From Choanephora cucurbitarum (Eukaryota > Mucoromycota > Mucoromycetes > Mucorales > Choanephoraceae), in assembly GCA_025331435.1 (NCBI GenBank), contig JAIWNI010000034.1, forward strand, positions 215,687-279,686: 64,000 nucleotides of DNA, read 5' to 3'. The notes under the pieces are model-generated. The model made no database searches, had not been told where the DNA came from, and saw only the letters and a list, made by a program, of their open reading frames with translations. The position numbers and the translations under genes are program-made. Position 1 is the stretch's first letter. Each line of letters opens with the position of its first letter. Of this stretch, positions 14,515-19,085 are shown piece by piece.

Positions 14515-15432
14515 ATGGCAGCCAACAGTCTTCCTCCAGACCAAAGATATACGCGTTTAGAGAAATTAGGTGAAGGCACCTATGCAACAGTCTATAAAGG
14601 AAAAAGCAGAGTTACAGGTGAGATTGTTGCCTTGAAAGAAATACATCTGGATCCAGAAGAAGGTGCTCCATCTACAGCCATTCGAGAAATCTCTCTGATG
14701 AAGGAACTAAAGCACCCTAATATCATGCGACTTCAGGATATTATTCACACAGAAAATAAGCTGACACTTGTATTCGAATACATGGACCAAGACCTCAAGA
14801 AATACATGGACTCAGCTGCGCGCTCTACACATGGCGCTTTGGATGCCAATACCATCAAGTCGTTCATGTACCAACTCTTACGAGGTATTGCTTATTGCCA
14901 CGAGAACCGTGTTTTGCACAGAGATTTGAAACCACAGAACTTGCTTATCAACAAGCACCACCAGTTGAAACTAGGTGATTTTGGTCTTGCTCGTGCCTTT
15001 GGTATTCCTGTGAATACCTTTTCAAATGAAGTAGTAACATTATGGTATCGTGCACCAGATGTCTTGTTGGGTTCTCGTATGTATTCTACATCAATTGATA
15101 TCTGGTCCGCAGGTTGTATTATGGCAGAAATGTATACAGGACGACCCTTGTTTCCAGGCACCACCAATGAAGATCAACTTCAAAAGATTTTTCGCTTGAT
15201 GGGTACACCCAATGAGCAAACATGGCCCAATATATCTCAGTTGCCTGAATACAAGCCTGCTCAGGTAGCCTATCCACCTCAGCATATTTCTCAATTTTTG
15301 CCCACGATTGATACATGCGGTCTAGACTTGCTCAGTCGAATGCTTCAATATCAACCTCAGCTGAGAATTAGTGCCAAAGATGCATTAAATCATGCTTACT
15401 TTAATGATATTAGATACTTATTTACAGATTAA
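14515..15432 (+). CDS. PHO85: cyclin-dependent kinase PHO85
   Basis: An intronless gene of 305 codons. The whole length is a CDK fold: glycine loop [12 protein letters not shown], cyclin-binding helix [15 protein letters not shown] (close to the PSTAIRE variant of Pho85/CDK5), catalytic loop [21 protein letters not shown] and activation segment [13 protein letters not shown]. As in Pho85/CDK5, the activation loop carries serine rather than the usual phosphorylated threonine. In yeasts Pho85 works with several cyclins in phosphate signalling, glycogen control and polarity. It starts 183 bp after the upstream kinase gene and is convergent with the HAC1-type gene, with stops 127 bp apart. Conservation is high along its full length. 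Confidence 0.93.
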
Positions 15433-15559
15433 AGAAATCAAGAGTTTTTTTTTATTACTTTGGAAGAAAAAATGCACATGAATTAAATAGTAAGAGAGTA
15501 TATGAAGTATAGACAAAAGAGAGGGGGAGAGATTGATGAAGATGGGAGGGTTAGGATAT

Positions 15560-16397
15560 TCATACCAGTGGAATTGAGAACAAGGAATCCCAGTTAAATA
15601 GATCGTCCAATTGAAAATCTTGGTTGACTATTGTGTTTGGTGAATATACAGTATCTTCATCTGAAGAGAATGAGGGTGATAACATAGGAGAAGGCAATCT
15701 TGTGGTAGAATCCAACACTTGAAGTTTTTGAGTATCATCTGTCGCTTGGTCAACAACCTCCGCTGCAGGGAAAAGGAAAATGGATTAGATCATGAAATTA
15801 TCAAAAAAAAAAATGGGTGGTAAACTTGGCTTTATGAGACGATATGGTATCCAGTTTTTTTTTTTTGAACTTTCTTCAATAACTAAGGCATTCCTTCTTT
15901 ACGATCCGTGCTGAATCGCAAAAGTCATTAAACAAGATAGGATGAACATTGTCAAACTTCATGTGTGGTAATTCAGTGAGTTGTCTTGTGATAGCCTCTA
16001 ATTGTGCAGTGATGAGAGCATTTTGAGCCTGCAATTGTTTCACTTGTTCATTCAATGCTTCATTCTGTTCTGTAAGTTGCTTGTTGTTAGACTCAAGTTC
16101 AGAAACATATCTACGCTTTTTATCGCGAGATTCTTGAGCTGCTGCACGATTACGAAGGATTCTTTCTTTTGTCTTTTGGTCTTTATCATCCAGTGAAAGT
16201 CTTGATTTCTTTGAAGCAACAGAATCATCTCTTTCAATACTCTTTCTCTTTTGATTGCCAGAAGCAACTGGAGGAGGAAGAGGAGAAACGATAGTAGAAG
16301 TAGTGGTTGCTACAAGAGGGTCAACAGCAAAATCCATAGGCAACGATAAGATATCGGCAAGTGAATTGTTGTTGTCGTTGTCGTTGTTGTTGGTCAT
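15560..16397 (-). CDS. HAC1: HAC1/XBP1-type bZIP factor (unfolded protein response)
   Basis: ATG at 16397. Without splicing the frame ends at 15876 (173 aa). Removing 15910-15766 joins 16397-15911 to 15765-15560 and gives 230 aa. The bZIP lies at about residues 75-140: basic region ERILRNRAAAQESRDKKRRY, then a leucine zipper with L/N/Q heptads. RNRAAAQESRDKK matches the HAC1/XBP1 class. The alternative C-terminus from exon 2 is acidic and aromatic (DFQLDDLFNWDSLFSIPLV), as expected of an activation domain. In HAC1/XBP1 biology the sensor IRE1 cuts the mRNA during ER stress and the religated mRNA encodes the active factor. No spliceosomal donor gives the correct phase with a good signal. The gene identity is strong; the IRE1 mechanism is inferred from structure and frame. 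Confidence 0.82.
15757..15773 (-). promoter_or_regulatory. HAC1: 3' IRE1-type hairpin of HAC1 intron
   Basis: Minus strand: a five-pair stem (15773-15769 with 15761-15757, two G-U pairs) closes the 7-nt loop CTGCAGC (15768-15762), a full match to C-N-G-C-N-G-N. The expected cut is between 15766 and 15765. Confidence 0.7.
15766..15910 (-). promoter_or_regulatory. HAC1: predicted IRE1-spliced intron of HAC1
   Basis: 145 nt between two hairpin loops. The length is not a multiple of three, so removal switches the reading frame. Cutting after the third loop base at both ends joins GATTCAG to CAGCGG and reads through into the acidic C-terminus. A polypyrimidine run precedes the 3' site, so a spliceosomal acceptor at CTGCAG is conceivable, but the only good donor (GTAAAG at 15903) gives the wrong phase with it. 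Confidence 0.72.
15814..15831 (-). promoter_or_regulatory. HAC1: HAC1 intron element complementary to the 5' leader
   Basis: Partner of the leader element at 16447-16464. It lies in the central part of the predicted intron, so excision by IRE1 would remove it and release the leader. Confidence 0.8.
15898..15922 (-). promoter_or_regulatory. HAC1: 5' IRE1-type hairpin of HAC1 intron
   Basis: On the minus strand a nine-pair stem (15922-15914 with 15906-15898, two G-U pairs) closes a 7-nt loop CAGCACG (15913-15907). The expected cut is after loop base 3 (15911). The loop fits the known C-N-G-[CA]-N-G-N pattern except at base 6, where C replaces G. Confidence 0.65.
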
Positions 16398-16446
16398 GAT
16401 TTTATAACAATAAAAAGGATTTTTATTTTTTTTTATTATTTGTTGG

Positions 16447-16464
16447 AGCCAAGTTTACCACCCA
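16447..16464 (-). promoter_or_regulatory. HAC1: HAC1 5' leader element complementary to the intron
   Basis: In the mRNA this leader segment, about 50 nt before the start codon, is perfectly complementary over 18 nt to 15814-15831 inside the predicted intron. On the plus strand the two sites form an exact inverted repeat (AGCCAAGTTTACCACCCA at 16447-16464). No such element is expected by chance in so short a transcript. Confidence 0.8.
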
Positions 16465-16469
16465 ATGAA

Positions 16470-19085
16470 GGATACAAATAAGAAAAAAAAGTACGTCTAA
16501 AGAGAGAAAAAAAAAAAGAAAAAAAAAACGCAAAGTTAACTTCATAGTCTGATTATTTAACCAGCACTCTGACCAATCAGATAGAAACACTTGTTACCGA
16601 GTCAAACTATAGACATAAAAAGAGAGAGTTGCTATTCTTGGAAACTGCTATTAAATAAGCGCAGTCGTTTTGGAACACTTGTCCAAATTGTCTTGGAAGT
16701 GCAAGTTTTATCTATAGTGTCATAAGCCCATGTACTTGATTATTGCAGTCAATACATTATCGCCTATCTCCTTTCCCTTTTACTAAATATGCCTTTTGTT
16801 TGTACCACTTTAAAGAATAAACATTTTCTGCAAATAGGCTTTCTTCAGAAATGCTAGTCTGAACAATGAATTGGTTGGCATTGATATCATATCGGATACT
16901 AAGGAAGATTAAGGCAGAAGAATCCAACTTGAGCTGGCTTTTATTCTTGACAAACGCACCTAATTAGTCATTCTTTATGCTATTTTTTTTTACAAGAGAA
17001 TATTAGGCACCATTCTGGTTCTATTACATAATCCAAGATCCTCTCTATTGCCGATATTTATGAGACACAGTGTACTCACATTGACTGTAACATACAGGAG
17101 AACATATATTAAAAAATAAAAAAAAAACTGGTTTGTGTTTCTTGACTCTCTTCATCTTCTTTTAAACAAGTCTATCATACAAACATCAATCGCTCCATGA
17201 CCCTAATCGATGCATTATCCTCTCAAAAGCACCAATTCATTGTTTTATAGAAACAGTGAGTGGAGCAACTTAGTAATTGGTCTCTTTTTAACTTTCTTTT
17301 TTTTTTCAGTCACACCAAGATTCGTTTGTATAGTGCGCATGCATGCTTCTTTTTTGTGAGTACGACAAAGAAAGTTTGAAGGCCCGTTTGCATAAGATGT
17401 TACACCTGACATCTTCTTTTGCTCTTTTATTTACTGTGGCTCTAATCTTGTGTAGCTGTAACGGAAAAAAGAACCGAATAGTAGTTTACATCGAATGTAT
17501 CAAGGCTATAAACTCAAAACCTGTTTGACATTGTGATCATTGTTTGTTGTATCTGTTTTAGCCCAATCACGCCATGAAGTGCCAAATAATTCTAGGCACT
17601 CTCTTGTCTCTTTAAAGGAAATCTCGGGAAGGAGGGAGTATCTATATTGATTGTTCACTGAAAGAAAAACGAATAAGTCTATGCCCTAGATTGATTCACA
17701 ATAAAGGCAGGATACACCGATCATCATCATCAAAAAAAGTTAGTGACGATTTCAACTTGAATAAACAATGAATGACCTGGAATCGCGTTAGAGACTATTT
17801 CTTCTCCTCTCTCCTTAATTGATTGGTAATGTGATATCATCTTAGATGAAATATCGAAATTCGATAAACATTAAGCAATTCTTTATTGAACAAGTAGTCA
17901 TTGTGATCTAAACTACATTTACTTCAAACAGATTATGTTTCAAAATTACTTAATCCGAGAGAAAGAGAGAAAAAGTCAATCAGCGGAAAGAAAAAAAAAA
18001 GATGGTTTGAAGATCAAAGACCCTGTTGAGCAACCCACTGTGTTCCTGGATTTGCTAAAGAAAGGAAACCGAAAGGGCAATTATACAAATAAGTTAACTT
18101 TGCAACACTTGTATTTCTAGGAGAGAGAAAGAGAGATGAAGGTAACTCTAAGCATAAATTTCCTTTCCCACTCTCTCTCTCTTCATCTCTTGTTCTATCA
18201 ACAACATGCGCAAACATTTTCCCGGTCAAAATGAAAGGCAAAAGGAGGTAAAAAAGCGAGAATAAGATGACACACGATTAATCTCCGTTTCAAACTATCG
18301 ATTCAAATCATACTGACCTGCGTATGTGTGTGTGACCCTCAGTGATGATGATTGGACTTTTCTAAATTATTCAAAGACAGGTTGGTCTGGGCAAAAAAAA
18401 AAAAAAAATAAACACAAACTTAATTTCAAGGCTTAATCATTTTAGTTATTCCAAACTTAACTATAATTGATAGTCCAAACCATTTAAAAAAAAGAGAGGG
18501 CAAATTAAACATCATTTAGTAAGAAGAAAAGGAGAAGAGAGCGTTTCTCTATTTCTTATTTGGAGATTGACTGTAAAAGAAACGATTGAGGTAGTACAAG
18601 GTCGTATGAAGATCCCTTTCCCGCTATAAGCTGCTGTTACTTTATGACAATGACATTTATTACTAAGATACACAAATTACTTTTTGCGTCTGGATGTTAC
18701 AGAACAAAAAAAAAAAGGGAAGTAGAGGGTATAAAAGAGAGAGTAAGAAAAAAGAAGTAAAGTAAACGGGCCAAAGAAAAAAAAAGAAAAACGCCTTAAA
18801 GTACTATCTCTCTTGTTGTTGATAAGATGCGGCGTTTGATTTCCGATAGTATTAGCCAATTTACTCTTTTCTTATTTTCTCTGTCTCTCTCTTGCTTTCT
18901 TTTTTTCTTACAGTAAGGTTACACAAATTTCGGAACACTTTTTTGGCTCTTTTTTTCACTTTAAGTTTAAATCAAAGTTTTTTTTTTTCTTTCTTAAAAG
19001 ACCATTCAGCTGTTGTTTTGCATTTCAATCTCTTTCTCTTTCTCTCTTCTTTCTTTCTTGTTTAAAAAAAATCATAAAGAAAAAG
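16470..19085. other. long gene-free interval
   Basis: About 2.6 kb between divergent HAC1 and NDT80-type genes. I see no protein-like frame or tRNA. It contains many A/T and CT tracts; the last 150 bp before 19086 are almost pure pyrimidine. Long upstream regions like this often hold regulatory sites for transcription-factor genes, but none can be named. Confidence 0.5.

Follow-up and report, generated by a model that had tools for sequence, protein, structure and literature searches.

The HAC1-type bZIP gene in the window (the whole 64-kb stretch of Choanephora cucurbitarum DNA analysed here) carries in its 5' leader an 18-nt sequence perfectly complementary to part of the intron that IRE1 is predicted to excise from the same mRNA. 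The leader arm TGGGTGGTAAACTTGGCT (16464 to 16447 on the minus strand; -67 to -50 from the ATG) is the exact reverse complement of the intron arm AGCCAAGTTTACCACCCA (15831 to 15814, minus strand; nucleotides 80-97 of the 145-nt intron); the arms are separated by 615 nt, and the bases flanking the 18-nt repeat match no further. We propose, with a probability of roughly 0.7, that the duplex silences translation of the unspliced HAC1 mRNA, as in Saccharomyces, and that excision of the intron by IRE1 lifts the block; this reading builds on the anatomy of the locus and on analogy. Directly observed here are the complementarity and its improbability, the splice-site anatomy, the restored reading frame, and the IRE1 and ligase domains encoded in the genome. 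An inverted-repeat scan confirmed the first-pass annotation, which had taken 16447-16464 and 15814-15831 to be exact inverted copies able to form 18 bp in the minus-strand mRNA, and returned this pair as the sole perfect inverted repeat of at least 16 nt within 1 kb in the window.

Judged by its sequence, the gene is a Mucorales HAC1-type bZIP. Its unspliced ORF of 173 aa (15876..16397, minus strand) matched the Pfam domains bZIP_2 (PF07716, 1e-11) and bZIP_1 (PF00170, 5.5e-10), and a protein homologue search with this ORF returned 66 matches including itself; the species-named ones belong to genera that we take to be Mucorales, with the single exception of Lobosporangium. These domain matches and Mucorales-type homologues bear out the original assignment to the HAC1/XBP1 class. 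No second HAC1-type gene was found in the 33.4-Mb assembly (357 contigs), where the next best match reached 42% over about the bZIP region. The closest homologue, with 67% identity, was P0002 (CU098_010026), labelled Rhizopus stolonifer. This protein is 93% identical to P0010 of Gilbertella persicaria (Mucorales, Choanephoraceae) and unlike another Rhizopus stolonifer protein (compare P0030), and the assembly it comes from may be mislabelled.

The unspliced ORF stops at 15876-15878, inside a 145-nt interval (15766..15910, minus strand) that we predict to be the IRE1-excised intron from cut sites read in two hairpin loops. The 5' splice-site hairpin (15898..15922, minus strand; cut marked by a slash in the loop CAG/CACG) has a 10-bp stem in the local fold, and the 3' splice-site hairpin (15757..15773, minus strand) reads TTTCC-CTG/CAGC-GGAGG. 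Both loops, CAG/CACG near 15911 and CTG/CAGC near 15766, fit CNG/C, which we take to be the IRE1-type consensus. In folds of the whole mRNA, four of five inspected stem pairs of the 5' hairpin had a probability of 0.86 and the outermost 0.38; pairing in the 3' hairpin was weak, with a probability of at most 0.21. Excision of the 145 nt (15910-15766) gives a 230-aa ORF ending LPSPMLSPSFSSDED...DDLFNWDSLFSIPLV. The coding part of the second exon with its stop (15560..15765, minus strand) encodes a conserved, activation-domain-like C-terminus, LPSPMLSPSFSSDED...DDLFNWDS, and the C-termini of P0005, P0008, P0014 and P0052 are similar to that of the spliced product. The intron arm at 15814..15831 lies within this predicted intron, so the complement does sit inside the interval expected to be cut out, as the first-pass annotation had stated. 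Two further components are encoded in the genome: an IRE1 KEN domain (PF06479, 6.5e-23), which follows an ORF that by eye resembles a kinase, and a Trl1-type ligase domain (PF09511, 7.6e-30). RtcB was not found in the genome search, and the profile PF08302 had no match in the genome, a result that is uninformative, as its control was silent too.

Alternatively, the spliceosome could remove the same interval in the nucleus as an ordinary intron, in which case the duplex would never regulate cytoplasmic translation. Nine GT/GC-AG combinations keep the conserved downstream frame, for example the donor GTAAAG at 15902 with the acceptor ending GGAG at 15758, and the protein models of five relatives place the junction elsewhere (P0005, P0008, P0021, P0044 and P0067). 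However, the best donor, GTAAAG, preserves the frame only if splicing passes over a CAG and uses an acceptor five bases beyond it, and the homologues themselves argue for IRE1. Among 86 of them, 61, with P0005, P0008 and P0021 included, carry a read-through tail of the form C[DGN]SAR[IV], 3 have an AEV-type junction, and 22 have neither. Two of these 3, the models of P0014 (Mucor lusitanicus) and P0052 (Hesseltinella, Mucorales), show the junction FCDSA-AEV, which is that expected of IRE1 cutting and which, if their codons resemble those in the window, no GT-AG or GC-AG intron would give. We therefore regard spliceosomal removal as rather improbable and retain excision by IRE1. The intron-encoded tail ARI(A/V)KK(E) (15876-15910) is widely kept among the Mucorales-type homologues P0001-P0061, perhaps beyond what the splice hairpin needs, and by analogy with the yeast Hac1u tail it could be a degron.

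The 18-nt match is very unlikely to be due to chance, as three controls show. Base composition predicts 2.7e-6 complements of 18 nt for a 100-nt leader set against the 145-nt intron; when leader and intron were dinucleotide-shuffled 2000 times, the longest complement obtained was 15 nt; and when the 100 nt before the start codon were compared with the next 700 nt, the longest complement was 7 to 12 nt in 68 of 69 sampled ORFs and 18 nt in HAC1. For the ORF control, the window and twenty 10-kb stretches supplied 74 ORFs with a minimum length of 150 aa; 5 of these had too little upstream sequence and were dropped. Across the assembly the 18-mer has two perfect matches, both at the HAC1 locus, and four matches with 2 mismatches. 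Total duplex energy sets the leader-intron pair apart less sharply than the 18-nt match does: its -37.1 kcal/mol is only moderately unusual (z -3.4), as shuffles averaged -23.6 and went as low as -40.0, presumably through the good pairing of A and T runs. A 200-kb sample contained four perfect inverted repeats of at least 18 nt within 1 kb, so it is the location and the gene that make the HAC1 repeat notable, not the repeat itself. Three other origins were weighed and rejected: only two perfect copies of the 18-mer exist in the genome, which speaks against a dispersed repeat or a transcription-factor site; the flanks of the two arms do not match, which speaks against a larger inverted duplication; and 18 bp looks too short for a Dicer substrate.

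The frequency of such repeats leaves some room for the view that the repeat arose by chance or by a recent short inverted duplication without function, or that the leader arm lies upstream of the transcript start. The average base profile upstream of the 69 ORFs gave no useful transcript-start signal and supports neither side. Against this view stand the controls on leader and intron just described and the lack of homology in the flanks, which a larger inverted duplication would leave. In addition, a pyrimidine-rich tract visible in the sequence and base profile (16481..16528, minus strand) ends just 5' of the leader arm; it may be a promoter T-block or the 3' end of a 5'UTR intron, and either would leave the leader arm in the mRNA. 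Overall, a repeat that is functionless or never transcribed seems improbable to us.

The 18-bp duplex alone was assigned -32.6 kcal/mol, and opening both arms in the folded mRNA is estimated to cost 12.7, which leaves a net value of about -19.9 kcal/mol for site opening plus duplex, pseudoknot penalty not included; no other site in the mRNA pairs with the leader arm at better than -15.3. RNAfold, which is pseudoknot-free, gave the duplex a probability of at most 0.004 with five assumed 5' ends. The duplex is absent from its output because the intron folds into its own hairpin, a long structure whose stem joins an A-rich side (15855..15868, minus strand; UC plus A12 in the RNA) to a U-rich side (15801..15813, minus strand; U11 plus GA in the RNA). 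The apical loop of this hairpin holds 15 of the 18 intron-arm bases in the minimum-energy local fold. The hairpin was marginal when compared with shuffles (z -1.78; 10 of 200 as good). In the same pseudoknot-free model the leader arm is locally paired at 0.68 in both spliced and unspliced mRNA, and RNAfold alone thus predicts no switch. The picture most consistent with these folding results would be an interaction between the loop and the leader. An Rfam scan of 15300-16700 gave 5 matches at E values up to 5, none at gathering score.

The source study for the duplex between the 5'UTR and the intron of S. cerevisiae HAC1 is reportedly that of Ruegsegger in 2001. Excerpts of later work describe this duplex as 15 bp, with -25.15 kcal/mol by IntaRNA and a leader arm at -38 to -20, of which an 11-bp core is enough; its distance to the cap is about 30 nt, and the block is relieved when 24 nt are added there (54 nt) (PMC8881652). 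The locus described here is like S. cerevisiae HAC1 in that a bZIP mRNA carries one arm in the leader upstream of the AUG and its partner in an IRE1-excised intron, and in that the unspliced ORF stops within the intron. At the level of layout, the parallel with budding-yeast HAC1 drawn in the first-pass annotation is thus borne out. Unlike in S. cerevisiae, there are 18 contiguous bp rather than 15, the leader arm is at -67 to -50 rather than -38 to -20, the intron is 145 rather than 252 nt long, and the organism belongs to another phylum and the system is known from sequence alone. The two energies (-19.9 here, -25.15 in yeast) come from different methods and are not to be ranked. For yeast, the duplex is said to be of marginal stability, perhaps since the intron has to detach once splicing is done (PMC5114014, in part); by analogy, 18 contiguous bp might release a spliced-out intron less easily.

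On the preferred reading, the 18 bp would let the 5' leader of the HAC1 mRNA pair over a long range with the intron that IRE1 excises. In the unstressed cell, a duplex across the leader near the cap would stop loading or scanning of the pre-initiation complex, and unspliced HAC1 mRNA would be stored without translation. Under ER stress, IRE1 would cut at both hairpin loops and the Trl1-type ligase would join the exons; with the intron arm lost, the leader would open, and the spliced mRNA would yield the 230-aa factor with its activation domain. We infer four parts of this scheme: the presence of the leader arm in the transcript, its pairing with the intron arm, the resulting block to translation, and stress as the trigger. 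Much of the first-pass interpretation stands, namely a HAC1-type bZIP, an IRE1-type intron that holds the complement, and a layout like that of the S. cerevisiae duplex; the translational block that it also named is a proposal by analogy.

A real duplex could also serve splicing more than translation, either as a tether that keeps the 5' exon, once cut, attached to the intron and the 3' exon pending ligation, or as a means of presenting the mRNA to IRE1. In the predicted fold, the two splice sites are drawn close by the intron hairpin, whose apical loop contains the greater part of the intron arm, and a yeast 3'UTR element is said, in a portion of PMC6116095, to cooperate with the intron structure in targeting the mRNA to Ire1. 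In yeast, however, the pairing region affects ribosome loading: as an excerpt of PMC5114014 has it, ribosomes load when either arm is broken and unload when compensatory mutants re-match the arms, and a second silencing mechanism acts via the protein tail. Moreover, N. crassa hac-1 is spliced with an intron of just 23 nt (PMC4488935, in part). A principal role in splicing is accordingly an unlikely reading of the duplex, and a translational role is preferred.

In the portions of the literature available to us, the leader-intron block is treated as confined to the long introns of Saccharomyces and related budding yeasts (PMC6116095, PMC8002603), long HAC1 introns as such being common in Saccharomycotina (PMC6222058). 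For K. lactis HAC1, a leader segment at -52 to -28 is predicted to pair with the intron (PMC6116095, in part); that pairing is, as here, only predicted, and K. lactis is a budding yeast related to S. cerevisiae. Introns elsewhere are shorter: the 20-nt intron of A. fumigatus hacA (PMC10781871) and the 23-nt intron of N. crassa hac-1 (PMC4488935) are held, in passages of these papers, to be too short for leader pairing, and the 56-nt intron of C. neoformans HXL1 was examined and, according to an excerpt, has no leader complement (PMC3154848). In these short-intron genes IRE1-type excision switches the C-terminal frame, as is predicted here, but they are described as having no leader complement or too little length for one. 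A leader-intron lock is a known kind of system, and its proposed instance in Mucorales is without a report among the full-text literature matches listed: none of these describes HAC1 leader-intron pairing in Mucorales in its title or the opening of its abstract, the 2011 intron survey of Hooks and Griffiths-Jones lying outside that coverage. Among the same matches, one paper joins HAC1, an intron and Mucorales, and its subject is an antifungal compound (PMC7341893).

The first-pass annotation left open whether such a block is ancient or arose twice, and the homologues lean to the second. Of the 61 models with a C[DGN]SAR[IV] tail, 58 do not continue into exon 2 and reach a stop 7 to 41 residues beyond SAR[IV]. 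Eleven non-Mucorales models (P0068-P0076, P0080 and P0081) instead continue for at least 154 residues past the equivalent splice site with no early stop, and that of Basidiobolus for 101. The eleven comprise Jimgerdemannia and Endogone (Endogonales), Calcarisporiella, and Mortierella-type fungi and their kin; two outgroup lineages were checked against records. The eleven look like they read through the second exon in another frame. Read-through past the splice site is also the pattern of the short intron in Aspergillus, as part of PMC10781871 describes it. Some of the eleven models may have been spliced by annotators, and the pattern is suggestive rather than proof. The remaining 10 of the 22 models with neither the tail nor the AEV-type junction do not bear on the question or depart from the pattern. 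Six of them (P0062-P0066 and P0077) run for 53 residues at most and may have entered an ordinary intron; P0079 stops a little beyond the site, two are incomplete (P0078 and P0084), and P0067 (Apophysomyces) is a differently spliced model.

Read-through in the outgroups against an early stop in the 58 Mucorales-type ORFs, together with the short introns of other fungi, favours a separate origin of the lock in Mucorales, as far as protein models can indicate. As a tentative proposal, to which we give somewhat less than an even chance, the Mucorales lock would be independent of that of budding yeast, with a long stop-bearing intron dating from the Mucorales stem and a pseudoknot between the apical loop of its hairpin and the leader that is opened by IRE1 excision. 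If this is a second, probably independent case in another phylum, an intron removable by IRE1 has been recruited as a translational lock more than once. Fungi that silence unspliced HAC1 by base pairing could then, if this holds, be compared with those that use other means, to ask why the two groups differ. Related loci were also sought in viral and genome contig collections with a 17-sequence alignment (17 of the 66 homologue proteins); the 92 and 159 pattern matches included no confirmed locus.

Several minor features of the homologues and of the locus were noted. The Mortierella-type models P0071-P0075, P0080 and P0081 keep a hydrophobic stretch, for example LPQLMLNFSTLFLISTGA, apparently the activation domain read in another frame; it is reminiscent of the hydrophobic region of XBP1u. 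Tripeptides that the leader or intron arm could encode occurred in many of the 86 proteins, but only as isolated matches of three residues that fell for the most part in exon sequence, the LSLP motif for example, and were uninformative. P0057, an N-terminally extended HAC1 model, has LLHWVGTMSSTD directly before its likely start Met; its HWV needs CAY TGG GTN, a sequence similar to the first bases of the leader arm here, CATTGGGTGG, though at another distance from the ATG; the resemblance is weak and possibly due to chance. At the 3' side of the gene, a second inverted repeat of 17 nt with 94% complementarity (15431-15447 and 16196-16212) joins the HAC1 3' region to the coding region. Convergent with HAC1 is a 305-aa ORF (14515-15432, plus strand) that by eye resembles a cyclin-dependent kinase; about 130 nt separate the stop codons of the two genes.
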